From: Methylobacterium oryzae
Lineage (GTDB): Bacteria; Pseudomonadota; Alphaproteobacteria; Rhizobiales; Beijerinckiaceae
Direction of reading: 5' to 3'
NCBI RefSeq assembly: GCF_021398735.1
Contig: NZ_CP090349.1
Span: 2,293,501 to 2,357,500, forward strand
Length of the DNA stretch: 64,000 bases
Each line of letters begins with the position of its first letter. Positions within the stretch are counted from its first letter, which is position 1. The position numbers and the translations under genes were made by a program. The notes under the pieces were generated by a model. That model was not told where the DNA came from, ran no database searches, and saw only the letters and a list, made by a program, of their open reading frames with translations. Below are positions 8,965 to 58,345 of the stretch, piece by piece.

Positions 8965-9921
8965 TTGAAGGCGATGGTGTTGACGAAGTTCGGGGGGCCG
9001 GACAGCTTCGAGCTCCGGGAGCTGCCAGACCCTCGGCCGGGACCCCGGCAGGTCCGCGTGGCCGTGCATGCCACGTCGATCAACCCGCTCGACGGCCAGA
9101 TCCGCCGCGGCGACTACGCCGCTCAGGTCGCGCTGCCGGCCATCATCGGGCACGACGTGTCCGGCGTCGTCGACCAGGTCGGATCCGACGTGACCGAGTT
9201 CCGCGCGGGGGATGAGGTCTATTACACGCCGCGGATCTTCGGCGGTCCGGGATCGTACGCTGAGTACCACGTCGCGGATGCCGGCATCGTCGCGCGCAAG
9301 CCGGTCAACCTCACCCATTCCGAGGCCGCGAGCGTCAGCCTCGTCGGCGTGACCGTCTGGGAAGGGCTGGTCGAGCGGGCCCGATTGCAGGTCACAGAGA
9401 CCGTCCTCGTCCACGGCGGTGCCGGGGGCGTCGGGGCGATCGCCGTCCAGGTCGCGAAGGCCATCGGGGCACGGGTCCTGGCGACGGCGCGCGGCAGCGA
9501 CGTGGCGCGCGTCGAGCGGCTCGGCGCCTCCGCCGTCATCGATTTCGAGCGCGAGGACTATGTAGACGCCGTCGATCGCCTGACCGAGGGCAGGGGCGTC
9601 GACGTCGTCCTGGACACGATCGGCCGCGACACGCTCGCGCGCTCCCCGCGCATCCTCCGCGAGGACGGGCGCGTCGTCACCCTGGTCGACACCGCGACGC
9701 CTCAGAACCTCATCGACGCTTGGGGCCGGAACGCCACCTACCACTTCGTCTTCTCGCGCCAGGACGGCCGCAAGCTCGACGCCGTGACGCGCCTCCTCGA
9801 GCGCGGCCTCGTGGTGCCGCGAGTCGGCCTGGAGTTTCCCCTCGACGAGGTCGCCAGCGCCCACGCGCGCTCCGAGGAGGGTCGGCTCGGAGGCAAGATC
9901 GTGCTCCGGGTGAGATCGTGA
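8965..9921 (+). CDS. Medium-chain zinc-less dehydrogenase, quinone-oxidoreductase-like
   Basis: An NADPH:quinone reductase/zeta-crystallin-type protein of 318 aa. The N-terminal GroES-like domain has [14 protein letters not shown] and [12 protein letters not shown]. The nucleotide domain has the AxxGxxG-type motif [20 protein letters not shown] near residues 150-169. The structural-zinc cysteines of zinc alcohol dehydrogenases are absent. The start is taken as TTG 8965 because a strong GGGAGG lies six bases upstream; ATG 8974 is the alternative. It is divergent from the LysR gene, which likely regulates it. The substrate is unknown. Confidence 0.86.
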
Positions 9922-10329
9922 GGCGGCCAGACCTCGATCGCTGTCCCTGACGTGACACCGGCAGCGTCCGGCGCCGCGAAGGGAAGCGGCTCACCTGAGA
10001 TCGAACCCGCGGAAACGGTGATGTCGCACCGTGGCAAGCCCGACCGGTCGGCGGGTCGAGCGGCACCCGGAGGCACGCGATCCTGCCGTCGACGACCTCG
10101 GTTACGTCCGTTCCGGTGACCGCGACCGGCCCGATCCCGACCCGCCTTCCATCGAAGGGATCCCAGGCGGTGGTGCCCGACGGCTACGTCGACCGGGGTG
10201 AACCGGTTGAGGGTCAGGGATCCTCGCGCGACCTGGGCACGACGGATCTTCCCGGCGGGAACCCGACCCGACCGCGAACTTAAAGATCTGAGACGCCGGA
10301 TACTCGGCCGGTGCCGGTCGAATGCCGAC
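9922..10329. other. Intergenic stretch containing a possible gene remnant
   Basis: About 400 bp without an intact gene. The minus strand between about 10183 and 10046 looks like the C-terminal part of a small protein (separate entry). The rest shows nothing I recognise. Confidence 0.4.
10046..10183 (-). pseudogene. Possible remnant of a SnoaL/NTF2-like protein
   Basis: Following an in-frame stop (10184-10186), the minus strand reads PSGTTAWDPFDGRRVGIGP, then VTGTDVTEVVDGRIACLRVPLDPPTG. The pattern TGTDV-E-VVDGRI--L-V-LDP is typical of the last two strands of NTF2/SnoaL-like domains. No start or N-terminal part is present, and after PPTG the frame continues into sequence that is antisense to the preceding gene. 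I read it as a fragment; chance similarity cannot be excluded. Confidence 0.3.
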
Positions 10330-10494
10330 CTACGCGCGCCCGAAGTGACGGAGCACGAGGGGCTCGGTCCGGGTAAGCTTGAGGCCGCGCGGCTGCGAGC
10401 GGCCGCTCCGGCCGGCGACGATGGCCAGGCCGACGAGGCCGACCGATCCGGTCAAAGCCACGGCCACACACCACCAGAAGGCGACATCGAGCAT
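10330..10494 (-). CDS. Small membrane protein, 54 aa
   Basis: ATG 10494 to TAG 10330. The N-terminal half is one membrane helix (AFWWCVAVALTGSVGLVGLA). A basic tail follows (GRSGRSQPRGLKLTRTEP), consistent with an inside-facing C-terminus. No strong ribosome site is visible and no family is recognised. The overlapping plus-strand frame is arginine/proline-rich and less protein-like. Confidence 0.42.
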   Translation of the reverse strand: MLDVAFWWCVAVALTGSVGLVGLAIVAGRSGRSQPRGLKLTRTEPLVLRHFGRA

Positions 10495-10752
10495 GGCTGT
10501 CCACGGGGCTCCGGTTGCACCCGAACTGTCGGACCGTACGGTAAACGGAGCGTTAAACGCGCGTTCGACCGAATAGCGTCAGCGCCTGCGGCCCGAGCGC
10601 CGTGTACTGCCGAGACATGGGCGCCGAATTCGGGCGCCGGAGAGCGTCGCTGAGCTCTCGGCGCGTCGATCCTACGCCCAATGGATGAAGGCGCGGAACG
10701 GAGCGCTGCCGCTACGACCCGAATCCGGTGCGGATGACCTTCAGGGACAGAG

Positions 10753-11880
10753 ATGCAGATCGGGATCGTCGGCTGCGGTTACGTCGCCGACTTCTACATG
10801 ACGACCCTCGTGAACCACCCCGAACTGCGCCTCGCCGGCGTCTACGACCGGGACCCGGAGCGGCGCGCCGTCTTCTGCCGTCACTACAACGCCCGCGCCT
10901 TCGACAGCCTCGAGGCCCTGCTCGCCGAGCCGGAGATCGGCCTCATCCTGAATCTGACCAACCCGCACAGTCACTACGTCGTGACCAAGGCCGCCCTGGA
11001 GGCCGGCAAGCACGTCTACTCCGAGAAGCCGCTCGCCATGGAGTACGCCCAGGCCGAAGCGCTGGTGGAACTCGCCGAGGCGAAGGGCCTCTCGCTGAGC
11101 GGCGCGCCCGCGAGCATCCTGGGCGAGGCGGGCGCGACCGTGCGGGAGGCCGTCGCGTCCGGCCAGGTCGGGTCGGTCCGGCTCGTCTACGCCGAGTTGG
11201 AGGACGGGCCGGTGTTCCAGGAGCCGGTGCATGAATGGCGGAGCGTGACCGGCGCCCCCTGGCCGGCCGAGGACGAGTACCGGGTCGGCTGCACCCTGGA
11301 GCACGCCGGCTACTACCTGACCTGGATGAGCCTGATGTTCGGCCCGGTCGAGCGCATGACTGCCTTCGCGTCGCGCCTGTACCCAGACAAGGGCACCGGC
11401 CAGCCCCCGGACTCGGTCGCCAACGACTTCTCGACAGCGTGCCTGGAGTTCCGATCCGGCGTCGTCGCGCGGATCACCTGCGGCCTCGTCGCGCCGCAGG
11501 ACCGCTCCCTGCACATCATCGGCGACCGGGGCGTCCTGACCGTGACCGATTCGTGGGCCAGCCAGGGCCCGGTCTATCTCCGTTCGCCGAGCGGCGAGGC
11601 GCCCGGGCGGCTCGGCCGGCTGCTGCACCGGATCCAGCGCTACCTGCCCGGGCGGATCTTCCTCGGTCGGAAGCTGCCGACTCCCCGCTTCGGGGGCAAG
11701 CTGCCCAGCTACCCGTCGCAGATGGATTTCGCCCGCGGACCCGCGGCCCAGGCCGCGGCGATCCGGGCGGGCGTTCCGGCGCCGCTCCCGGCGCGGTTCG
11801 TGCTGCACATCACCGAGATCGCGCTCGCCATGCAGAATGCCGGCGGCGGCGCCGTGATCCAGCTGAGATCCAGGTTCTAG
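10753..11880 (+). CDS. Gfo/Idh/MocA-family oxidoreductase, 375 aa
   Basis: An NAD(P)-dependent sugar or sugar-alcohol dehydrogenase of the Gfo/Idh/MocA type. The Rossmann motif IGIVGCGYVADFY is at residues 3-15. Further on are LILNLTNPHSHYVVTKAALEAGKHVYSEKPLA with the family EKP lysine near residue 95, and the C-terminal alpha/beta substrate domain. The histidine-containing CTLEHAGYYLTWM stretch is in the expected catalytic region. The start has AGGGACAG just upstream. It is followed after 2 bp by a second member of the family, so the two are surely co-transcribed. The substrate cannot be deduced from sequence. Confidence 0.88.
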   Translation: MQIGIVGCGYVADFYMTTLVNHPELRLAGVYDRDPERRAVFCRHYNARAFDSLEALLAEPEIGLILNLTNPHSHYVVTKAALEAGKHVYSEKPLAMEYAQAEALVELAEAKGLSLSGAPASILGEAGATVREAVASGQVGSVRLVYAELEDGPVFQEPVHEWRSVTGAPWPAEDEYRVGCTLEHAGYYLTWMSLMFGPVERMTAFASRLYPDKGTGQPPDSVANDFSTACLEFRSGVVARITCGLVAPQDRSLHIIGDRGVLTVTDSWASQGPVYLRSPSGEAPGRLGRLLHRIQRYLPGRIFLGRKLPTPRFGGKLPSYPSQMDFARGPAAQAAAIRAGVPAPLPARFVLHITEIALAMQNAGGGAVIQLRSRF

Positions 11881-45946: not shown

Positions 45947-45983
45947 GGTTCTCCCTCCCACCTGCGCGGGGGGAGGGAGAACC
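45947..45983. terminator. Strong hairpin terminator between convergent operons
   Basis: GGTTCTCCCTCCC and GGGAGGGAGAACC form a perfect 13-bp stem with an 11-nt loop. It lies 8 bp after the stop of the small exported protein and 37 bp beyond the end of the leftward operon (46021), so it probably ends transcription from both sides. Confidence 0.85.
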
Positions 45984-46020: not shown

Positions 46021-47493
46021 CTACGCGCCGAGCCCGCCCACGCACAGGTACTTGGTGTTCAGGTAATCCTCGATGCCCTGGTACGAGCCCTCTCGGCCGA
46101 GGCCGGATTCCTTCACGCCGCCGAAGGGCGCCACCTCGGTGGTGATGATCCCCTCGTTGATCCCGACCATGCCGTATTCCAGCGCCTCCGCGACTCGGAA
46201 GGTCCGGCCGAGGTCGCGGGTGTAGAAGTAGCAGGCGAGCCCGTACTCGGTGTCGTTGGCCATGCGGATCGCCTCCGCCTCGTCGCGGAAGCGGAACAGC
46301 GGCGCCAGCGGCCCGAAGGTCTCTTCCCGGGCCACCGCCATGGCGGGGGTGGCGCCGGTGATCACCGTCGGCTCGAAGAACTGGCCGCCCAGCGCGTGGC
46401 GGTGGCCGCCCGCCACCACCCGGCCGCCCTTCTCCACGGCGTCGCGGATATGGGCCTCGGTCTTCTCCACGGCCGCCATGTCGATCAGCGGCCCCTGGGC
46501 GACGCCGTCCTCGACGCCGTTGCCGACCTTCAGGCGGTTGGCCGCCTCGGCCATCTTCTCCGCGAAGGCGTCGTAGATCCCGTCCTGCACCAGGAACCGG
46601 TTGGTGCAGATGCAGGTCTGGCCGGAATTGCGGTACTTGGCGAGCATCGCGCCGGCCACCGCCTTGTCGAGGTCGGCGTCGTCGAACACGATGAAGGGCG
46701 CGTTGCCGCCGAGCTCCATCGAGACCTTCTTCACCGTGTGGGCGGCCTGCTCCAGCAGCACCTTGCCGACCTCGGTGGAGCCGGTGAACGTGATCTTCTT
46801 GACGAGCGGGTTGCCGGTCATCTCGGCGCCGATGGCGCGGGCCGAGCCGGTGAGGATCGAGACCGTGCCGGCCGGGAAGCCGGCGCGCTCGCACAGGACG
46901 CCCCAGGCGAGGCCGGAGAGCGGGGTCTGCGAGGCGGGCTTGATCACGATCGGGCAGCCGGCGGCCAGAGCCGGGGCGATCTTGCGGGCGATCATCGAGG
47001 ACGGGAAGTTCCACGGCGTGATCGCCGCCACGACGCCGACCGGCTCCTTGGTGACGAGAATCTTGCGGTCGCCCCAGGGGGAGGGGACCACGTCGCCGTA
47101 GACGCGGCGCGCCTCTTCCGCGAACCACAGCACGTAGGCGGCCGACATGGCGACCTCGCCGCGGGACTCGGTCAGCGACTTGCCCTGCTCGGCGGTGAGG
47201 ATCTGCGCCAGATCCTCCTGATGCTCGGTCACGAGCGCCGCGAGCTTGCGCAGCAGCACGGCGCGCTCGTTGGCGGTCTTGGCGCGCCACGCCGGGTAGG
47301 CCTCGTGCGCCGCCTTGATCGCCTGCCGGGTCTCGTCGGCGCCGGCATTCGGCACCTTGGCGATCAGCGCGCCGGTCGCCGGGTTGGTGACGTCGATGCT
47401 GCCGGAACCGGCCTTCGACCATGCGCCGCCGATCAGGCAGGCATCGACCAGCAGGGCGCGGTCCTTCAGGGAGGGGGTCTCGAACTCAGGCAT
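46021..47493 (-). CDS. gabD: NAD(P)-dependent succinate-semialdehyde dehydrogenase (GabD-like)
   Basis: It oxidises succinate semialdehyde to succinate. The 490-aa protein has the GabD hallmarks VYGDVVPSPWGDRKILVTKE, ITPWNFPSSMIARKIAPALA, the active-site glutamate in SMELGGNAPFIVF and the cysteine in YRNSGQTCICTNRF. The ending GGVKESGLGREGSYQGIEDY is also typical. It is the last gene of a six-gene leftward operon and overlaps the CoA-transferase gene by 8 bases. In this setting it could drain succinate semialdehyde to the TCA cycle, with the upstream decarboxylase making the aldehyde. Confidence 0.92.
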   Translation of the reverse strand: MPEFETPSLKDRALLVDACLIGGAWSKAGSGSIDVTNPATGALIAKVPNAGADETRQAIKAAHEAYPAWRAKTANERAVLLRKLAALVTEHQEDLAQILTAEQGKSLTESRGEVAMSAAYVLWFAEEARRVYGDVVPSPWGDRKILVTKEPVGVVAAITPWNFPSSMIARKIAPALAAGCPIVIKPASQTPLSGLAWGVLCERAGFPAGTVSILTGSARAIGAEMTGNPLVKKITFTGSTEVGKVLLEQAAHTVKKVSMELGGNAPFIVFDDADLDKAVAGAMLAKYRNSGQTCICTNRFLVQDGIYDAFAEKMAEAANRLKVGNGVEDGVAQGPLIDMAAVEKTEAHIRDAVEKGGRVVAGGHRHALGGQFFEPTVITGATPAMAVAREETFGPLAPLFRFRDEAEAIRMANDTEYGLACYFYTRDLGRTFRVAEALEYGMVGINEGIITTEVAPFGGVKESGLGREGSYQGIEDYLNTKYLCVGGLGA

Positions 47494-49498
47494 CCAACGG
47501 TTCCTTCGGCGGCCGCGGCATGTCGGGCTGGGACATGCCGGACCGCGGCTTGAGAGGCACGCTCTGGGCCGTATTCCTCGCCTGCGCCTCGGCTTTTGTC
47601 TCGAAGACATGGGGAGCCAGGTCGCGGCTCGCCAACGAGGCGCCGAGTTTCAATCGCAAGAACGCGCTCGTGGTATACCGGGACGCGGTCTCGTAATAGC
47701 GGTTTTCGAGATAGGCGATCGCCGAGAAGTAGGCGTCGCTCACCGTCGGGTCGATCTCGAACCCGTCGTAATTGGCGATCAGGTGGACCTTCCTGCCGAT
47801 CTCCTGGCAGGCGCGCTCGTATTCGCGGCGCACCAGCTCGACGTCGTCGATGGTCCGGACCTGGAAGCCCTCGAGGTTCGAGAACAGGATGTTGCGCTCC
47901 GGGTCGTAGCTGATCCGCTCCGACAGCGAGAGGCCCAGCAGCCAGGGCTCCAGCGCCATCACGGACTCGCGGAACAGGCGCGGATCCATCGGCTGCGGAT
48001 CCTGCACGATTGGGGTGAAGCCCATCTGGCCGAGGATGTCGCGCGCGATGTCGATGCCCGGCGCGACCTCGACCAGCTCCATGCCGGCCCGCGTCCGGCG
48101 GAACACGCAGCGCTCGGTCACGTAGAGCACCGGCTGGCCGCGCTCGGCCGCGTAGGCCCCCGAGAAGGTCACCTGCTCGACCGCGGCGATGAATTTCCGC
48201 GAGCGGCCCTCGCTGAGGATCCGGATACCGCCGTCCTCCACCGCCACCTTGAGGCCGTCGGCCGTGAACGTGCCGGCGAAGACGAGGCTCTTGGCGTTCT
48301 GCGAGATGTTGATGAACCCGCCCGCGCCCGCGAGCTTCTTGCCGAACCGGCTGACGTTGACGTTGCCCTCGGCGTCGCACTGGGCGAGGCCCAGGCAGGC
48401 GAGATCGAGGCCGCCGCCGTCGTAGAAGTCGAACTGCTGGTTCTGGTGCAGCACCGCGGCCGGGTTGAGGGCGGCGCCGAAATCCAGCCCACCCTGCGGC
48501 AGGCCGCCGATCACGCCGGGCTCGGCGGTCAGCGTCAGGTATTTCAGCACCCGCTCCTCGGCGGCGACCGCCGCGACGCCCTCGGGCATGCCGATACCGA
48601 GATTGACCACGCCGCCCGGCGGGAGCTCGAAGGCGCAGCGCCGGGCGATGACCTTGCGGGTGTCGAGCGGCATCGGGGCGATCCGGTCGAGCGGCACGCG
48701 CTGGCGGCCCGTGAAGGCGTGGTTGTAGGGCGTGCCGTAGGTCTGGCGGTGGTTCTCGGGCGTGCTGAGCACCACGCAATCGACCAGCACGCCGGGCACC
48801 TGCACCTCGCGCGGGTTGAGAGAGCCGGCCTCGGCGAGCCGCTCGACCTGGGCGATGACGAAGCCACCCGAGTTCTTCGCCGCCATGGCGGCGGCGAGGT
48901 TGTCGAGGGTGAGCGCCTCGCGCTCCATGGTAATGTTGCCGGCGGGGTCGGCCGTGGTGCCGCGGATCAGCGCGACGTTGACCGGGAAGGCCTTGTAGTG
49001 GAGCCAGGCCTCGCCGCCGAGCTCGACCACGCTGACGAGGTCTTCCTGCGTCACGGCGTTGAGCTTGCCGCCCTCCAGACGGGGGTCGACGAAGGTGCGT
49101 AACCCCACTTTGGTGATGTGGCCCGGCGTGTGGGCGGCGATCTCGCGGTAGAGGTGCGAGACCACGCCGAGCGGCAGGTTGTAGGCCTCGATCTCGCCCG
49201 CCACCGCCATGGCGCCGAGCTTCGGCACGAGCGCCCAGTGGCCGCCGACGACGCGGCGGACGAGGCCCGGGATCGCGAGCTTGTTGAGGCCGCGCTCCTT
49301 GCCGTCGCCGGGGGCGGCGGCGAACATCAGGCCGATCCCGTGCGGGCCGTTGCCGGATTCGAAGCGGCGGGCGAGCGCCAGGATCAGCTCGTCGGGCGTG
49401 CCGATCCCGACGAAGCCCGAGACCGCCACCATGTCGCCGTCCTGCAGGATGGCGGCGGCCTCGTCGGCGCTGACGATCTTGTTCTTCAGGCTGCCCAT
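47486..49498 (-). CDS. Class I acyl-CoA:carboxylate CoA-transferase (propionate/4-hydroxybutyrate CoA-transferase-like)
   Basis: Transfers CoA between carboxylic acids. It begins IVSADEAAAILQDGDMVAVS and has two Pct/YdiF-type halves. The catalytic glutamate is in NLGIGMPEGVAAVA near residue 308. At 670 aa it is about 140 residues longer than simple propionate CoA-transferases. The extra C-terminal domain (from about 540, with RISYDPERNILFSNLEGFQV and YYETASRYTTSAFLRLKLG) looks like a small alpha/beta domain. It lies between phaC (24 bp upstream) and gabD, so activation of a hydroxy acid to its CoA ester for the PHA synthase is the likely role. Confidence 0.88.
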   Translation of the reverse strand: MGSLKNKIVSADEAAAILQDGDMVAVSGFVGIGTPDELILALARRFESGNGPHGIGLMFAAAPGDGKERGLNKLAIPGLVRRVVGGHWALVPKLGAMAVAGEIEAYNLPLGVVSHLYREIAAHTPGHITKVGLRTFVDPRLEGGKLNAVTQEDLVSVVELGGEAWLHYKAFPVNVALIRGTTADPAGNITMEREALTLDNLAAAMAAKNSGGFVIAQVERLAEAGSLNPREVQVPGVLVDCVVLSTPENHRQTYGTPYNHAFTGRQRVPLDRIAPMPLDTRKVIARRCAFELPPGGVVNLGIGMPEGVAAVAAEERVLKYLTLTAEPGVIGGLPQGGLDFGAALNPAAVLHQNQQFDFYDGGGLDLACLGLAQCDAEGNVNVSRFGKKLAGAGGFINISQNAKSLVFAGTFTADGLKVAVEDGGIRILSEGRSRKFIAAVEQVTFSGAYAAERGQPVLYVTERCVFRRTRAGMELVEVAPGIDIARDILGQMGFTPIVQDPQPMDPRLFRESVMALEPWLLGLSLSERISYDPERNILFSNLEGFQVRTIDDVELVRREYERACQEIGRKVHLIANYDGFEIDPTVSDAYFSAIAYLENRYYETASRYTTSAFLRLKLGASLASRDLAPHVFETKAEAQARNTAQSVPLKPRSGMSQPDMPRPPKEPLDA

Positions 49499-49522
49499 GC
49501 GGCACTCCCCCGAGCCTGCACG

Positions 49523-50653
49523 TTATCCCCGCTTGCCGAGCCAGTCGGCGATGCCGGAGCCCAGCAGCTTCTGTGCCTTGCCGCCGACGAAGACGCCGAC
49601 ATGGCCGCCGGGCAGACCCATCTCGGTGTAGTCGGTGGTGCCGATCTTATCCTTCAGCGCCTGCGAGGTGGCCGGCGGGATGATGTGGTCGTCCTGGGCG
49701 AAGACGTTCAGCACCGGGCAGGTGATGGCCTTCAGGTCCACCCGCCGGCCGCCGAGCTCGAAGGCGCTCTCGACCAGCTTGTTGTCCTGGTAGAGGTCCT
49801 TCAGCCACTGCTTGGCGGCCTCGCCGGGATGGTCCGGACGGTCGGCGATCCACTTCTCCATCCGGAGGAAGTTCAGGAACTTTTTCTTGTCGTCGAGGGC
49901 GTCGAGCAGGTCGAGGTTGTACTTCGTCATGGTGCGCATCGGCGTCATCATCGAGAACACCGAGCCCATGAAGGCGCCGGGCAGCGACCCCTGCGCCTCG
50001 ATCAGCCGGTCGACATCCTCGGGCGTGAGCGAGCGGGTCCAGACGTTGATGAAGCCGTGGCCGGCCCGGTTCTCCCGCGTGTCGGCGTGGAAGTCGATCG
50101 GCGTGATCGTCAGCACCATCGCGTTGACGGTCTCGGGGTAGAGCGCCGCGTAGCAGGTGGTGAAGACGCCGCCCTCGCAGATGCCGAGCAGGCTCACTCG
50201 CTCGCGCCCGGCCGCCTCCTGGATGAAGGCGACGCACTCGGCGAGGTAGCCGTCCACGTAATCGTCGATGGTGACGTAGCGGTCGGCCCGGCCCGGATTG
50301 CCCCAGTCGACCACGTAGAGGTCGAGGCCGAGATTCAGGAGATTGCGGACGAGCGAGCGGTCCTCCTGCAGGTCGGCCATCGTGTAGCGGCCGATCAGGC
50401 CGTAGACGATGAGCACCGGCGGCAGGCCCGCGCTCTCGGCGAGCGGCCGGTAGCGGTAGAGGCTGACCTTGTCCTGGCTCCAGACCAGGTCCTTCGGCGT
50501 GGTGGCGATCTCGACATCGGCGTCGCTGACATCGGCGAACAGCCTGGCGCCCTCGCTGATGCGGCGGCCGAGGGTGCCGACCTCGGCCAGCAACGCGGCC
50601 GGGGTGAGATTCAGCGGGGCGGCGGGCCCCTTCGGCTTCTCCTGATCAGCCAT
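49523..50653 (-). CDS. phaC: Class III polyhydroxyalkanoate synthase subunit PhaC
   Basis: Catalytic subunit that polymerises hydroxyacyl-CoA into polyester. The 376-aa length fits class III/IV rather than class I (about 560-600). The lipase-like box GICEGG carries Cys159. The aspartate is in FAQDDHIIPP (about 322) and the histidine in GGHVGVF (351). VVDWGNPGRADRYVTIDDYV matches PhaC. It overlaps phaE by 8 bases. Class III is unusual for Methylobacterium, whose main synthase is class I. Confidence 0.93.
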   Translation of the reverse strand: MADQEKPKGPAAPLNLTPAALLAEVGTLGRRISEGARLFADVSDADVEIATTPKDLVWSQDKVSLYRYRPLAESAGLPPVLIVYGLIGRYTMADLQEDRSLVRNLLNLGLDLYVVDWGNPGRADRYVTIDDYVDGYLAECVAFIQEAAGRERVSLLGICEGGVFTTCYAALYPETVNAMVLTITPIDFHADTRENRAGHGFINVWTRSLTPEDVDRLIEAQGSLPGAFMGSVFSMMTPMRTMTKYNLDLLDALDDKKKFLNFLRMEKWIADRPDHPGEAAKQWLKDLYQDNKLVESAFELGGRRVDLKAITCPVLNVFAQDDHIIPPATSQALKDKIGTTDYTEMGLPGGHVGVFVGGKAQKLLGSGIADWLGKRG

Positions 50654-51476
50654 GGGCGTCCTCCCCGACCCGTGAACCGCCGGCTCTCGCGGTCTTGCCG
50701 GCCTGCCGACGCTCGCGGCGGAGCGCCCGGACTTCCCGGCGCAGCTCGGTCAGGCTCTTGTGGACGTCGTCGAGCTCGGCCCGGGTCGGCTGGCCGTAGA
50801 ACTCGGACAGGAAGGCCGCGACGTCCTGCTGGGCGAGCCGGAGGTCCGTGGAGGCCCGCAGGACCGCCCGCTGCGAGGCCAGGAACGCGTCGGAGCGCTG
50901 GACCTCCAGGAGGACCGCGTTGGCGGTCTCGATCCACCGGCTCATCATCTCGCGGGCGGAGGCGAAGCTCTCGCCGTTTTCGGCGCGGGCATTGGCCTCC
51001 TTCGCGAAGGTCCCGGCCGCCCGCGTCCAGGCCTGCAGCATCACGGCCTGATGCTCGCTCTGCGCCCGCCGCAGGCTCGCCCAGGCGGTGAACAGCGCCG
51101 CGTAGCGCCGCTCGGTCTGCCACAGGTCGGCGAGCTGCGGGCCCTCGGCCATGCGGGTCAGGGCGGCGTCGAACTCGGCCGAGCCGCCGAGCCAGGCCTG
51201 CGGATCGAAGATCCGGGCGAGCACCGCTCCGGCCGTCGGGTCCGGTGCGCCGGGGCCGCCCTGGAGCGAGCGCGTCAGCGTCTGCGAGAGGGCGCTGGCG
51301 GCGGTCCAGGCCTCGGTCAGCTTGGCCTGCGCCGCGGCGAGATCCGCGAGGTCGCCGCCCGGGAAGGCCGGCCAGCCGAACCCGGTCGCGGACTGCCCGG
51401 CGCCCGGGGTGAAGAAGCCCGCGCCGGCCCGCGTCCAGAACTCGCTCATCGCCCGGAACGCGTCGAACTGGTCCAT
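50646..51476 (-). CDS. phaE: Class III polyhydroxyalkanoate synthase subunit PhaE
   Basis: Accessory subunit that activates PhaC in class III synthases. The 276-aa protein is mostly helical. It has the family-like segments MDQFDAFRAMSEFW, LFTAWASLRRAQSEHQAVML and AFLSEFYGQPTRAELDDVHK, then a basic coiled-coil tail (LTELRREVRALRRERR). PhaE proteins vary greatly in sequence, so the adjoining phaC is the stronger evidence. The start is ATG 51476. A palindromic repeat separates it from the alcohol dehydrogenase gene upstream. Confidence 0.85.
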   Translation of the reverse strand: MDQFDAFRAMSEFWTRAGAGFFTPGAGQSATGFGWPAFPGGDLADLAAAQAKLTEAWTAASALSQTLTRSLQGGPGAPDPTAGAVLARIFDPQAWLGGSAEFDAALTRMAEGPQLADLWQTERRYAALFTAWASLRRAQSEHQAVMLQAWTRAAGTFAKEANARAENGESFASAREMMSRWIETANAVLLEVQRSDAFLASQRAVLRASTDLRLAQQDVAAFLSEFYGQPTRAELDDVHKSLTELRREVRALRRERRQAGKTARAGGSRVGEDAHG

Positions 51477-51519
51477 GCTGGCGTCTCTCCTCACAGCCCC
51501 GAGGCTGAAACCGTCGCCC

Positions 51520-51611
51520 CCGTCCCCGCGAGCGGAGCGAAGCAATCCAGCAGCGCCATGCTCAACGACGGCGCGCCACCCTGGGTCGCTTCGCTGCGCT
51601 CGCGATGACGG
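51520..51611. repeat. Dispersed palindromic repeat, copy 3
   Basis: Same family as the 27365 copy; the stem is perfect near the centre-facing ends but has a two-base mismatch close to the tip. It lies inside the PHA operon between phaE and the alcohol dehydrogenase gene, where it might alter expression between the two halves. Confidence 0.88.
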
Positions 51612-51663
51612 TGTGGGCTGGACTGATCGGGCGACAGCCCCGGCATCACCGCCGTCGTCATGC

Positions 51664-52839
51664 TCACGCCGCCGGGCGCGCCTCTCCCAGCGCCTCGGCG
51701 TAGATCGCGAAGGCGTCGTCGTAGGTGACCTCGCGCGGGTTGTTCACGAGGAGCCGCGTCTGCTTCATCGCGTCGGTGGCCATGCGCTCTAGGTCCTGCC
51801 GGGCGACGCCGACCTCGGCGAGCGAGGCCGGAACCTTGCAGTCGCGGCAGATCGCGTCGAGACTCTCCACGAAGCGCTTGGCGGCCTCGGGCCGCGGCAG
51901 GTCCGCGGCCGCGGGGTCGAGGATCGGCGCGAGCTCAGCGTAGAGTCCTTCAGCGTGCGAGAGGTTGAAGCGCATCACCCCCATCAGCACCAGGGCGTTC
52001 GAGAGCCCGTGCGGCACGTGGAAGATCGCGCCGACCGGGTAGGCGAGGGCGTGCACCGCCGCCACCGGCGCGTTGGCGAAGGCCATGCCGGCCAGCATCG
52101 AGCCGAGCAGCATGCCGGAGCGCGCCTCGAGGTTCTTCCCGTCCGTGCAGGCAGTCCGGATGTTGGCCGAGAGCAGCGCCAGGGCCTGCTTGGCGAGCTG
52201 GTCGGAGATCGGGTTCTTCTTGTTCTTGCTGGTGAAGGCCTCGATGGCGTGGACCATGGCGTCGATGCCGGTCGCCGCGGTGACGTGCGACGGCAGGCCG
52301 AGCGTCAGCTCCGGGTCGAGCACCGCCCAGTCGGGCAGGAGCTTCGGCGCGACGACGCCCTTCTTCTCGGTGGTCGGCGTCGTGACGATCGAGATCGGCG
52401 TCACCTCCGAGCCGGTGCCGGCCGTGGTCGGCACCAGGATCAGCGGCAGGCGGTCGCCCTTGGCGAGGCCGACGCCGTAGATCGCGTCGAGCGGCTCGTC
52501 GGACTTGGCGAGGTAGGCCACGAGCTTGGCGGTATCGAGCGCCGAGCCGCCACCGATCGACAGGACGAGGTCGGTCCCGAGCTCGCGGGCGCGCTTGGCC
52601 GCCGCCTCGATCACCGTCGAGGGCGGGTCGGCGACCACGTCCTCGTAGACGTCGAGGGTGACGCCCGCGGCGGCCAGGGCCGCCTCGGCGGCCTGGGTGA
52701 GGCCGGCGCCGCGCACGCCCTTGTCGGTGACGAGGAGGACGCGCTTGGCCCCGAAGCTGCCGACGATCTCCGGCAGCTTCTTCGCGGCGCCGGCCTCGAA
52801 CAGCACGTTCGGCGTGGTCTGGAAGGTGAACGGGTTCAT
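51664..52839 (-). CDS. Iron-containing (group III) alcohol dehydrogenase, possible 4-hydroxybutyrate dehydrogenase
   Basis: A 391-aa iron-type dehydrogenase. The NAD-binding motif is SIGGGSALDTAK near residues 94-105. TTAGTGSEVTPISI follows, and the metal ligands are in GIDAMVHAIEAFTS (Asp, His), AAVHALAYPVG and VPHGLSNALVL. Members include 4-hydroxybutyrate, 1,3-propanediol and lactaldehyde dehydrogenases, and sequence alone does not separate them. It lies 43 bp after a TPP decarboxylase gene and upstream of PHA synthase, CoA-transferase and succinate-semialdehyde dehydrogenase genes, which points to reduction of succinate semialdehyde. Confidence 0.9.
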   Translation of the reverse strand: MNPFTFQTTPNVLFEAGAAKKLPEIVGSFGAKRVLLVTDKGVRGAGLTQAAEAALAAAGVTLDVYEDVVADPPSTVIEAAAKRARELGTDLVLSIGGGSALDTAKLVAYLAKSDEPLDAIYGVGLAKGDRLPLILVPTTAGTGSEVTPISIVTTPTTEKKGVVAPKLLPDWAVLDPELTLGLPSHVTAATGIDAMVHAIEAFTSKNKKNPISDQLAKQALALLSANIRTACTDGKNLEARSGMLLGSMLAGMAFANAPVAAVHALAYPVGAIFHVPHGLSNALVLMGVMRFNLSHAEGLYAELAPILDPAAADLPRPEAAKRFVESLDAICRDCKVPASLAEVGVARQDLERMATDAMKQTRLLVNNPREVTYDDAFAIYAEALGEARPAA

Positions 52840-52882
52840 CGCGCTGCCCTGTCTTGCGTGCCGACCATCTGCGAAACCGGCC

Positions 52883-54535
52883 TCACTCGGCCGGCTCGAA
52901 ATCCTTCACCTTGGCGCGCAGCTCGTCGACCAGCACGCGGGTGTTCTCCGAGTAGTCGATCGGCACCGCCACGAGGTGCACCCCGCCCGCCGCGAAGGCC
53001 CGGTCCAGCGTCGGCACGAGGTCGTTGACCGACTCGACCCGGTGGCCGGTCGCCCCGTACGACTTGGCGTAGAGGACGAAGTCCGGGTTGCTGAAGGTCA
53101 TGCCGTAATCGGCGAACTTGTCGACCGCCTGCTTCCAGCGGATCATCCCGTAGGCCGAGTCGTCGAGCACCAGCACCACGAGGTTGAGCTTCAGCCGGAC
53201 GGCGGTCTCCATCTCCTGGCTGTTCATCATGAACCCGCCGTCGCCGCAGACGGCCATCACGCGCCGCTTCGGGTAGAGCATCGCCGCCATCATGGCCGAG
53301 GGCAGGCCCGCGCCCATCGTGGCCAGCGCGTTGTCGAGGAGCAGCGTGTTGGCGACGTAGGTTCGGTAGTTCCGGGCGAACCAGATCTTGTACATGCCGT
53401 TGTCGAGGCACACGATCCCGTCCTCCGGGATCACCCGGCGCACGTCACGCACGAGGCGCTGCGGCGTCACCGGGAAGCGGTCCTCGCCGGCCCGGTCGGC
53501 GATGTGGCCGAGGATGTGCTCGCGCAGGTGCAGCAGCGCGCCCGCGTTCGGGAGCTTGCCGTCGAGCTTGTCGGCCAGGAGCTTCAGCGTCGGGCCAAGG
53601 TCGCCCACCACCTCGGCATCCGGATAGTACACCTGCTCGACGTTGGCCGGCATGTAGCCGATGTGGACGACCTTCTGGTCGGCCTGGCCCATGAAGAACG
53701 GCGGCTTCTCGATCGTATCGTGGCCGATGGCGATGATCAGGTCGGCCTTGTCGATCGCCTCGTGGACGTAGTCGCGCTCGGAGAGGGCCGCGGTGCCCAT
53801 GTAGAGGTCGGTCCCGCCCGCGACGGTGCCCTTGCCCATCTGGGTGGTGAAGAACGGGATGCCGGTGCGCTGCACGAAGCCGCCGAGCTCGCCGGTGGCG
53901 CGGGGGCGGCTCGCGGCGGCGCCCAGCATGATCAGCGGGCGCTTGGCCTTCAGGATCATGTCCGCGGCGCGCGCGATCGCGGTCGGGTGGGCGACCGGGA
54001 TGTCGATCGGGTGCGAGGGGACGAGGTCCGCCTCGGCCTCCTCGGAGGCGATGTCCTCGGGCAGCTCCAGCAGCACCGGGCCGGGCCGCTCCTCGGTGGC
54101 GACCCGGAAGGCGTCGCGCACGATGGTGGGGATCGAGGAGGCCGAGACGATCTGCCGGGCCATCTTGGTGATCGGCTTCATCGACGAGATCACGTCGACG
54201 ATCTGGAACTTGGCCTGGCGCGAGGACAGGATGCCCTTCTGGCCGGTGATGATGATCATCGGCATGGCGCCGAGATGGGCGTAGGCCGCGCCGGTGGAGA
54301 AGTTCAGGGCGCCCGGGCCGAGCGTCGAGAGGCAGACGCCGGGGCGGCCGGTGAGCCGGCCGTGGGTGGCGGCCATGAAGCTCGCCGCCTGCTCGTGGCG
54401 GGTCAGGACCAGCTCGATCTTGGAGTTGCGCAGAGATTCGACGACGTCGAGGTTCTCCTCCCCGGGAATCCCGAAGATGCGGTCGACGCCCTCGTTCTCG
54501 AGGGCCGCGACGAGGAGATCTGAACCTTTGGGCAT
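52883..54535 (-). CDS. TPP-dependent decarboxylase, acetolactate synthase-like (possible 2-oxoglutarate decarboxylase)
   Basis: A 550-aa enzyme with the three TPP-family domains. The N-terminal pyrimidine domain has IFGIPGEENLDVVESL with the activating glutamate, then RHEQAASFMAATHGRLTG and GVCLSTLGPGALN. The central domain is typical. The C-terminal domain has the TPP/Mg motif GDGGFMMNSQEMETA then LDDSAYGMI. The PGEENL segment and overall pattern resemble the cyanobacterial 2-oxoglutarate decarboxylase, once labelled acetolactate synthase. No small regulatory subunit gene (ilvH) is adjacent, and the downstream gabD makes a succinate-semialdehyde-forming role attractive. A true acetolactate synthase remains possible. 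It is the first gene of the operon. Confidence 0.85.
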   Translation of the reverse strand: MPKGSDLLVAALENEGVDRIFGIPGEENLDVVESLRNSKIELVLTRHEQAASFMAATHGRLTGRPGVCLSTLGPGALNFSTGAAYAHLGAMPMIIITGQKGILSSRQAKFQIVDVISSMKPITKMARQIVSASSIPTIVRDAFRVATEERPGPVLLELPEDIASEEAEADLVPSHPIDIPVAHPTAIARAADMILKAKRPLIMLGAAASRPRATGELGGFVQRTGIPFFTTQMGKGTVAGGTDLYMGTAALSERDYVHEAIDKADLIIAIGHDTIEKPPFFMGQADQKVVHIGYMPANVEQVYYPDAEVVGDLGPTLKLLADKLDGKLPNAGALLHLREHILGHIADRAGEDRFPVTPQRLVRDVRRVIPEDGIVCLDNGMYKIWFARNYRTYVANTLLLDNALATMGAGLPSAMMAAMLYPKRRVMAVCGDGGFMMNSQEMETAVRLKLNLVVLVLDDSAYGMIRWKQAVDKFADYGMTFSNPDFVLYAKSYGATGHRVESVNDLVPTLDRAFAAGGVHLVAVPIDYSENTRVLVDELRAKVKDFEPAE

Positions 54536-56287: not shown

Positions 56288-56328
56288 CGGTGCGGTCTGC
56301 TCGCGGCCGGTCGATGCCGTCCGCACGT

Positions 56329-56411
56329 CCGTCCTCGCGAGCGGAGCGAAGCGATCCAGATCGCGCGACGCCGGCCAGCCTCGCGCTGTCCTGGGTCACT
56401 TCGCTCCGCTC
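56329..56411. repeat. Dispersed palindromic repeat, copy 4
   Basis: Left arm starts CCGTCCTCGCGAGCGGAGCG. The right arm matches it in reverse complement except at two positions, both of which would be G-U pairs in RNA. It lies between convergent genes for the DUF2252 protein and a LysR regulator. Confidence 0.9.
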
Positions 56412-56461
56412 GTGAGGACGGCACGGAATGCGTCGACCGTCGCGTTCAAGCGGAAAGCGTA

Positions 56462-57400: not shown

Positions 57401-58345
57401 GGGCGTCGCGTTCGGTGGAGGGTCGGAGTGCCGACATAGCAGATGCGACGGCTTGCCCGTCATCCCGAAGTCGCGCCGCGGCGTCCCGGAGTGACGGCAG
57501 GGCTCGGCCCATGTGACGGTGCCAGCGACTGATAATTCTGCGGCACCGACGTCCTTGCGAGCGGAGCGAAGCGAGCCAGCAGCGCGACGCCTGCCGATGT
57601 TGCGCGGCCCTGGGTCGCTTCGCTGCGCTCGCGAGGACGGAGAGGGGCGTCGACCGGGGCGCGGCTCAGTTTTCCTTGACAATGTTCCTATTTTGTGCTT
57701 CCTGACCGCACCTGTCCGCGGCGGCCCGGGAGCGATCCCGGGGCGTCCTTCGGGGGCCCGCCCGGTGGCTGACCGTGCGGGTCCGGGGACGGGGCGGCGC
57801 CCGCGTCGGTGGCTCTCAGCCGCCATCGCCCCGGGCGGCGGACCGGTGCGGGGCGTGCCTCGGATGCGGGCGTGAGACCGGGCGGCACTGTGCCCGGCGG
57901 GGTGAGGAAATGCCCCCGCGCCGACCCGCCTCTGGGCCGACCCTGAGCGACCTGCGGACCCGCCCACTACGAGGCGGGGGACGGCTGGAAGGCCACGGCG
58001 CCGATGCGGGTTCCGGAGGTGCGGGCACGGCGTACGAGCACGGCGTGCCTGCACCTCGACAGAGACCGCTAACGGGGAGTCGCAGGACCGGGACGTCGGA
58101 GACGCCGCGACGAGACAGACGGCACCGGCCGGGGACCATGCCCGGCCGATGCCGCGGGGCGCCGCGGGGATCGGATCCCGCGCGTACTTGGCCGACACCT
58201 GGGTTCCCGCGGCGTCCCGCGTCCCTCGTGCTCGCCTCCCGGGCCATGCCCCCGGCGCCACGCGCGCGCGGGGACGATCACGCGTGTCCGGTGCCGGCAC
58301 CTCGGGACGAGCCGGGGAGAGCGATGGTTCGCGCCCCGCCGGTCC
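57401..58345. other. 945 bp without a supportable gene
   Basis: It contains repeat copy 5 (57550-57640). Just beyond is an AT-richer patch with a perfect TTGACA (57676-57681) but no good -10 box 17 bases on. The GC-rich remainder (57710-58345) has only arginine/proline-rich open frames on both strands. Confidence 0.5.
57550..57640. repeat. Dispersed palindromic repeat, copy 5
   Basis: Left arm CGTCCTTGCGAGCGGAGCGA and right arm ending CGCTCGCGAGGACG, complementary apart from two positions. Same family as the copies at 27365, 39066, 51520 and 56329. Confidence 0.9.

Follow-up and report, generated by a model that had tools for sequence, protein, structure and literature searches.

A 2025 preprint reports, in its available text, that ghbD-phaE-phaC2-ghbT-acs loci are required for polyhydroxyalkanoate (PHA) granules in bacteroids of Sinorhizobium meliloti HM006, that purified GhbD accepts NADH or NADPH for the reduction of succinate semialdehyde, and that succinate semialdehyde and 4-hydroxybutyrate (gamma-hydroxybutyrate, GHB) accumulate in nodules; poly(4-hydroxybutyrate) was proposed as the polymer, and the aldehyde was supposed to come from gamma-aminobutyrate (GABA) of the host (PMC12636752). 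According to the accessible part of a 2020 review, wild-type strains made 4-hydroxybutyrate copolymers only from structurally related precursors (PMC7147479). Here we describe a six-gene operon at positions 46021-54535 of a 64,000-nucleotide stretch of Methylobacterium oryzae DNA (RefSeq assembly GCF_021398735.1, contig NZ_CP090349.1, positions 2,293,501 to 2,357,500; hereafter the window), from a genome of 6.65 Mb. The operon is very likely, judging from its sequence, to encode a poly(4-hydroxybutyrate) storage route fed by the tricarboxylic acid (TCA) cycle at 2-oxoglutarate, and the window shows what seems to be the whole TCA-fed version of a system of which only a part was known. The new part is the 2-oxoglutarate entry, through a gene for a thiamine pyrophosphate (TPP)-dependent enzyme; the core is already described in the preprint text available (PMC12636752).

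A six-gene operon predicted to lead from 2-oxoglutarate to a polyester

Six open reading frames (ORFs), all open and all on the minus strand, fill 46021-54535, and their starts and stops agree with this span. In the 5' to 3' direction of that strand they encode the TPP enzyme, an iron-type alcohol dehydrogenase (ADH), PhaE, PhaC, a CoA-transferase and a succinate semialdehyde dehydrogenase (SSADH), separated by intergenic gaps of 43, 187, -8, 24 and -8 bp, with four of the five junctions tight or overlapping. The original prediction for this DNA had described six leftward genes, mostly tight or overlapping, ending at a perfect 13-bp hairpin; ORFs, gaps and hairpin were all confirmed, as were the six family identities it proposed, by profile matches and by sequence matches to the Protein Data Bank. 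The features, with the evidence for each, are:

52883-54535, minus strand: TPP-dependent decarboxylase, predicted 2-oxoglutarate decarboxylase, 550 aa (NF006187/PRK08322, conserved lysines, orthologue neighbours)
51664-52839, minus strand: iron-type dehydrogenase, GhbD orthologue, predicted succinate semialdehyde reductase/4-hydroxybutyrate dehydrogenase, 391 aa (PF00465/PF25137, GhbD identity, clade)
51512-51617, no strand: interspersed repeat of 106 nt within the 187-bp ADH-PhaE gap (repeat copies elsewhere in the window)
50646-51476, minus strand: PhaE, class III PHA synthase subunit, 276 aa, ATG at 51476 (PF09712)
49523-50653, minus strand: PhaC, class III PHA synthase catalytic subunit, 376 aa (TIGR01836, motifs)
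47486-49498, minus strand: YdiF-type CoA-transferase with C-terminal extension, GhbT orthologue, predicted acetyl-CoA:4-hydroxybutyrate CoA-transferase, 670 aa (PF01144, 2ahu, GhbT identity)
46021-47493, minus strand: SSADH, GabD type, 490 aa (TIGR01780, 3jz4, AttK-like identity)
45947-45983, no strand: perfect 13-bp hairpin at the operon end, no T-run (pattern shuffles, fold z)

In the pathway that we propose, the TPP enzyme would decarboxylate 2-oxoglutarate to succinate semialdehyde, which the GhbD-type ADH would reduce, preferably with NADH, to 4-hydroxybutyrate, a step shown for the HM006 enzyme in the preprint and assigned here by orthology. The CoA-transferase would form 4-hydroxybutyryl-CoA, probably from acetyl-CoA with release of acetate, and PhaE/PhaC would polymerise it, the presumed monomer of the HM006 granules, which need the orthologous loci. 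SSADH would send surplus succinate semialdehyde to succinate, acting both as a bypass of 2-oxoglutarate dehydrogenase (OGDH) and as a relief valve. As a net effect, carbon and reducing power drained at 2-oxoglutarate would be banked.

The gene set recurs in other genomes

The gene order of the operon is found again in other genomes, and the operon is therefore not a chance arrangement. We compared TPP orthologue loci that are the best 80 of at least 585 confirmed relatives; a separate TPP homologue search listed the nearest 120 of 7924 matches. Neighbours were probed at the 80 loci, in the other family genomes with a TPP match (20 of 21; G121 was left out) and at eight further loci. To count, a neighbour had to lie on the strand of the TPP gene, no more than 9 kb away, and to exceed identity thresholds set in this analysis; some flanks are cut short. 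Genes for ADH, PhaC and CoA-transferase lie beside the TPP gene at 16 of the 80 loci, namely 12 of 17 from Methylobacterium and 4 of 30 from Bradyrhizobium by record title (hereafter cassette loci).

We also started from PhaC, in partly overlapping samples of 199 family, 397 order and 385 class genomes. TPP orthologues (E<=1e-100) occur in 22 of the 199 family genomes, M. oryzae included. PhaC of the operon type was matched in 11 other genomes (four in the family at E<=1e-60, two in the order and five in the class at E<=1e-80), five of which (G048, G227, G426, G691 and G795) have the TPP-ADH-PhaE-PhaC-CoA-transferase cassette, the CoA-transferase gene of G048 being cut by a contig end. The PhaC lineage of the operon is a rare one, and of its observed carriers about half possess the cassette.

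The dehydrogenase, synthase and CoA-transferase resemble HM006 proteins

The dehydrogenase scores 163.2 bits against PF00465 (cut-off 31.3), also matches PF25137, and is 66.7% identical to S. meliloti HM006 GhbD over 390 aa. A tree of 29 rows (28 different) places GhbD and the window protein in one clade of 23 ADHs with support of 96/98; 22 members of this clade come from PHA cassettes, and the remaining one (L034) belongs to a TPP-ADH pair. Outside the clade lie the AttL type and the other iron-type ADH of the M. oryzae genome (two long branches, flagged by the tool). By orthology to GhbD, the window dehydrogenase is predicted to reduce succinate semialdehyde. The TPP-ADH pair of L034 (6460-10354) is followed by an M24 peptidase gene, not by PHA genes; this locus is from the same genus (g8) as the cassette-bearing G048. 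At L112, a zinc-type ADH (9690-10820) stands in the place of the iron-type ADH after the TPP gene, with PhaC and CoA-transferase.

PhaC exceeds the cut-off of the class III model TIGR01836 (383.4 bits; cut-off 365.3), is 59% identical to HM006 PhaC, and carries GICEGG at 157, AQDDH at 319 and GGHVG at 349, motifs that we take to be catalytic. PhaE scores 72 against PF09712 (PHA_synth_III_E; cut-off 25.7) and 78.4 against TIGR01834 (cut-off 154.95). The sole other PhaC match in the genome (E<=0.001) is 25% identical, is located elsewhere and appears by eye to be class I; the operon PhaE/PhaC is therefore a second synthase. On the plasmid pM44601 of Methylobacterium sp. 4-46 (L162 8974-10081), PhaC is split over two frames and the TPP and ADH genes are open.

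The CoA-transferase scores 113.3 against PF01144 (CoA_trans; cut-off 23), matches the YdiF structure 2ahu over residues 8-515, and is 59% identical to HM006 GhbT over residues 4-640, with the motif TAEPGVIGG at 324. It is not over the cut-off of AcetylCoA_hydro PF02550, the type to which OrfZ/Cat2 presumably belongs (23.7 against 24, over residues 5-46 only). The C-terminal ~155 residues (47486-47953), beyond the YdiF-matched part, have no Pfam match and align with HM006 GhbT to residue 640. Genes for acs, pyrophosphatase and adenylate kinase occur together in a Bosea cassette, acs occurs in S. meliloti, and L080 has a partial acs and both other genes; this would fit a CoA-transferase driven by acetyl-CoA with release of acetate. 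No acs match was found anywhere in the window, or within 9 kb of the TPP gene in 12 Methylobacterium cassettes. Phasin genes are present in five cassettes (L077, L078, L080, L144 and the Bosea plasmid, L160), and none was found in the window. In several cassettes from outside Methylobacterium an alpha/beta hydrolase gene follows the CoA-transferase gene (L077 16402-17457, L160 12484-13428, L144 4863-5786, L145 12708-13625), encoding a candidate depolymerase or oligomer hydrolase.

Neighbours of TPP orthologues point to citrate and 2-oxoglutarate

A gene for a citrate symporter, an aconitase, an isocitrate dehydrogenase (IDH)-like protein or a KgtP-type permease lies near the TPP gene at 10 of the 80 loci (Bradyrhizobium, Methylobacterium, Rhodopila and Belnapia) and on a Bosea plasmid. 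These supply genes are found at 5 of the 16 cassette loci and 5 of the 64 other loci. At the Bradyrhizobium loci L077-L079, a 2HCT citrate symporter is followed in order by AcnA, an IDH-like protein, the TPP enzyme, an aldehyde dehydrogenase (ALDH) in two of the loci, an iron-type ADH, PhaE, PhaC and the CoA-transferase; a phasin is present at two of these loci and an alpha/beta hydrolase at all three. The IDH-like protein has the isocitrate dehydrogenase model PRK08997 as its best match, below cut-off (428.6 against 510), and the 2HCT protein matches Pfam 2HCT and is under the TIGR00783 cut-off (455 against 549). The Bosea vaviloviae plasmid reads acnA-IDH-TPP-ADH-PhaE-PhaC-CoA-transferase-phaP-hydrolase-acs-ppa-adk-citrate:H+ symporter; G426 carries citMHS (579.2; cut-off 259.7), and in M. 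dankookense (L074) a 2HCT gene precedes the TPP gene. A KgtP-type permease gene lies within 3 kb of the TPP gene at five of the 80 loci (L073, L075, L076, L079, L080), and the three permeases tested exceeded the cut-off of PRK10406, which we take to be KgtP. At L073, from Methylobacterium, a KgtP gene is followed by the TPP gene and then directly by a GabD orthologue (80%), without PHA genes. More widely, an ALDH ~31% identical to the window SSADH follows the TPP gene at 19 of the 80 loci, two of them cassette loci, and at 11 of the 20 family loci.

The presence of citrate and 2-oxoglutarate supply genes near some orthologues argues that the substrate of the TPP enzyme is very probably 2-oxoglutarate. 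Four lines lead to this prediction: the neighbours, the pairing with SSADH or ALDH, the pocket residues described below, and the possible sources of the aldehyde in the genome. On the last point, the M. oryzae genome encodes the OGDH E1 subunit, and no GABA transaminase or glutamate decarboxylase over cut-off was found in it, where weaker aminotransferase matches exist, the best with 240 bits against a cut-off of 506.65; a GABA shunt was rejected on this basis as the source of the aldehyde here. The SSADH itself is over the cut-off of TIGR01780 (690.7 bits; cut-off 646.35) and under that of the narrower NADP-dependent model NF008415 (732.4 against 828), matches structure 3jz4 with E=3.1e-201, and is 61% identical to the AttK-like SSADH of pRltTA1A.

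L086 has an IDH-like gene, the TPP gene and a zinc-type ADH gene, and no PHA gene was found near them. Two L145 genes were labelled TctA/TctC by eye only, with no NCBIfam match at E 1e-60, and the AMP-ligase reading of L146 and L147 is likewise by eye.

Two pocket lysines are probably shared with a cyanobacterial decarboxylase

The TPP enzyme scores 831.6 bits against NF006187 (PRK08322, 'acetolactate synthase large subunit'; cut-off 509), a label given by annotation rather than by a test of function. It is under the cut-offs of the models for catabolic (TIGR02418; 402.7 against 551.1) and biosynthetic (TIGR00118; 348.4 against 538.35) acetolactate synthase, and is 98% identical to a protein of Methylobacterium sp. 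UNC378MF and 97% identical to one of M. fujisawaense. The TPP gene of L105, a record titled Frankia sp. RB7, is 79% identical to that of the window, as in Bradyrhizobium, and the label may be wrong.

In the Microcystis 2-oxoglutarate decarboxylase (KGD), Lys386 and Lys471 contact 2-oxoglutarate by docking, according to the accessible text (PMC10418658). A TPP plasmid search gave 15 records, none cyanobacterial. Because no cyanobacterial KGD sequence was obtained, our comparison rests on the residue numbers published in that paper, mapped by motif rather than by direct sequence alignment, and it covers 12 positions, with Gln254 and Tyr531 left out. The predicted counterparts of the two lysines, Lys383 and Lys468, are kept in 80/80 orthologues. 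Six of seven TPP paralogues in the M. oryzae genome could be read at these sites, and none of the six has either lysine; the catabolic acetolactate synthase 1ozf has His and Gln at the aligned positions. Overall, the window-type enzyme agrees with KGD at 8 of the 12 positions, both lysines included. The TPP enzymes of the G227, G795 and G691 cassettes are 40-42% identical to that of the window and agree at 11 of the 12, with His in the place of Lys471; the one scored among them (L145) is over the PRK08322 cut-off (794 against 509). At the cassettes L145, L155 and L156 the TPP enzyme has Val, Ala, His and Leu as KGD does, together with this His. Model scores, pocket lysines and neighbours led us to reject an acetolactate synthase function for the window gene.

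The TPP gene is broken or partial at most rhizobial plasmid loci compared

The best TPP stretch is open at 79 of the 80 orthologue loci, including all 16 cassette loci (the exception, L083, has no cassette and one stop), and the gene is also open in the Bosea plasmid and Methylobacterium 4-46 loci. A plasmid PhaC search yielded 42 records, of which 15 were read, 13 of these from Rhizobium or Sinorhizobium. Among the 13, the TPP gene, located upstream of the ghbD homologue, is open in one (L161), broken or partial in nine (L163, which is HM006, and L159, L168, L170, L172-L174, L176 and L177), and without a match over 60 bits in three (L169, L171, L175); R. johnstonii 3841 pRL10, one of the nine, has two copies, both broken. 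On HM006 pSymA, the TPP gene lies upstream of ghbD, broken into two pieces in different frames (L163 4470-6064). These are probably the two annotated pseudogenes that the preprint places in the 2783 bp upstream of ghbD; the words 'ketoglutarate', 'oxoglutarate', 'decarboxylase' and 'acetolactate' do not appear in the preprint text, as far as available (PMC12636752). Upstream of the TPP gene on two S. meliloti plasmids there are also partial matches of 39-40% to the IDH-like protein (L161 4390-4965, L163 2167-2694), possibly relics of an aconitase-IDH module.

With respect to origin, we lean somewhat towards an ancestral, self-sufficient store, in which citrate or 2-oxoglutarate would be burned only as far as 2-oxoglutarate, decarboxylated, and banked as poly(4-hydroxybutyrate), the full form comprising citrate uptake, aconitase, IDH, phasin and acetate recycling. 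Through plasmids this system would have come down to nodule rhizobia, which would have lost the decarboxylase because they receive succinate semialdehyde from the plant in the form of GABA, and the carbon store would have become a host-incompatibility factor in HM006.

Alternative readings of the operon

Several observations weigh against a 2-oxoglutarate-fed polymer route. The TPP family bears the name of acetolactate synthase, its role as a decarboxylase being predicted, and the window enzyme has Asn, Met, Tyr and Met where KGD has Val382, Ala384, His385 and Leu467. No citrate or 2-oxoglutarate supply gene was counted at 70 of the 80 TPP loci, and the probed citrate-symporter, aconitase, IDH and KgtP genes were not found in the window. 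Six of the 11 PhaC-first genomes lack the cassette (G043, G106, G129, G698, G710, G722; some on short contigs). The ADH is far under the model for C. necator-type 4-hydroxybutyrate dehydrogenase (NF058672; 254 against 500). The genome also encodes the OGDH E1 subunit SucA, so that no bypass is needed, and a GabD in the same operon would drain aldehyde away from the polymer; in engineered Halomonas, deletion of two SSADH genes raised the 4-hydroxybutyrate fraction 24-fold (PMC7147479, accessible text). For HM006, granules and metabolites were measured, and neither NMR nor GC-MS occurs in the preprint text available (PMC12636752).

The operon might instead be mainly a 2-oxoglutarate bypass and redox valve, with the TPP enzyme and SSADH leading to succinate and with 4-hydroxybutyrate and polymer as a minor overflow sink. 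Consistent with this, the operon contains a competing SSADH, and TPP orthologues occur with ALDH and without PHA genes (among the 19 and 11 loci noted above, of which two of the 19 are cassette loci) and with GabD at L073. By contrast, OGDH E1 is present, the PhaE/PhaC pair stays linked to the CoA-transferase in Methylobacterium, Bradyrhizobium, Bosea and S. meliloti plasmids, and phasins and acs join the cassette in relatives, and we regard a primary bypass function as unlikely. Less probable still is that the TPP enzyme truly works as an acetolactate synthase or a pyruvate decarboxylase, without any relation to the ADH substrate, and that succinate semialdehyde comes from GABA or other amino acids, in line with what the preprint supposes for bacteroids. 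The family name would agree with such an enzyme, and HM006 forms granules and GHB despite the broken TPP gene beside ghbD; however, the protein falls under both acetolactate synthase cut-offs, the genome has no GABA transaminase or glutamate decarboxylase over cut-off, the weaker aminotransferase matches aside, and the orthologue neighbours point to citrate and 2-oxoglutarate. A polymer of another hydroxyacid, such as lactate, or 3-hydroxypropionate made from oxaloacetate via malonate semialdehyde, which the original prediction had named as the main alternative, is very improbable and found no support in the evidence examined: the substrates of the Methylobacterium enzymes are predictions, but GhbD orthology, an SSADH over cut-off, and aconitase and IDH-like neighbours of orthologues all speak against it.

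Conversion of 2-oxoglutarate to a 4-hydroxybutyrate polyester, as originally predicted, is the reading best supported, by the clade that the ADH shares with GhbD, by the supply-gene neighbours and by the TPP-GabD pair of L073.

Other features of the locus

The hairpin at 45947-45983 has a 13-bp perfect stem and an 11-nt spacer; its pattern (<=3 mismatches) appeared in 0/100 shuffles, and the folded strand has z = -3.56. No T-run was found in the sequence 3' of the stem, and the hairpin is therefore not a canonical intrinsic terminator. We also rejected it as a conserved terminator: in a simple search of the site in 13 Methylobacterium loci, nearly the same arm was found only in L063, while eight had other hairpins and four had none. 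The repeat at 51512-51617 has a copy at 57541-57646 that is 79% identical and a shorter one at 56323-56359 (56323-56421 in a wider delimitation); it is palindromic, and the intra-operon copy between ADH and PhaE may influence the mRNA. Divergent to the operon runs a DUF2252 gene, with a LysR regulator beyond it. Rfam and tRNA scans of the window gave no matches.

Significance and comparison with known systems

If the proposed pathway is correct, the operon would let a wild-type strain make a polymer of medical use from a TCA intermediate, with every enzyme encoded in a single operon; in wild bacteria such a route had been thought to require a fed precursor. It would also suggest where succinate semialdehyde might come from, a point on which the S. 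meliloti study relied on assumption, and the claim of a 2-oxoglutarate entry is directly testable in culturable Methylobacterium and Bradyrhizobium. The original prediction knew of no description of this natural gene order; that does not hold for the core ghbD-phaE-phaC2-ghbT-acs, which the accessible preprint text describes without the TPP enzyme (PMC12636752). Searches of open-licence PMC papers led to the preprint and to engineered pathways; a natural TPP-ADH-PhaE-PhaC-CoA-transferase-SSADH operon was not found in the titles and abstract openings listed, which is not proof of absence.

The attKLM-like cluster of R. leguminosarum TA1 resembles the window in its iron-type dehydrogenase (52% identical) and its SSADH (61%). 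In Agrobacterium, attKLM is presumably the same as blcABC. The GHB catabolism of Agrobacterium attKLM differs from the window in being catabolic, with a lactonase and without a PHA synthase (roles as cited in the available text of PMC12636752). The cyanobacterial bypass of OgdA/KGD and SSADH is similar in having a TPP-dependent enzyme together with an SSADH, with the two lysines kept by position (PMC10418658, PMC5160925; accessible text); the window adds a predicted 4-hydroxybutyrate dehydrogenase, a CoA-transferase and a PHA synthase, and its genome encodes OGDH E1 as well, the two systems being compared by position only. Engineered Halomonas bluephagenesis pathways to P(3HB-co-4HB) (3HB, 3-hydroxybutyrate; 4HB, 4-hydroxybutyrate), with ogdA from Synechococcus, sucD, 4hbD and orfZ, take the same steps from 2-oxoglutarate to polymer, but are man-made and use the C. 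kluyveri OrfZ CoA-transferase, whereas the window is predicted to hold all steps in one natural operon (PMC7147479, accessible text). Closest is the HM006 ghb operon, which has an orthologous ADH (67%), PhaC (59%) and CoA-transferase (59%) in the same order and a proposed path from succinate semialdehyde through GHB and GHB-CoA to polymer. HM006 has a broken TPP gene, acs as the last gene, and attKLM-type catabolism genes on the same replicon; by contrast, the window has an open TPP gene and its own SSADH, without acs.

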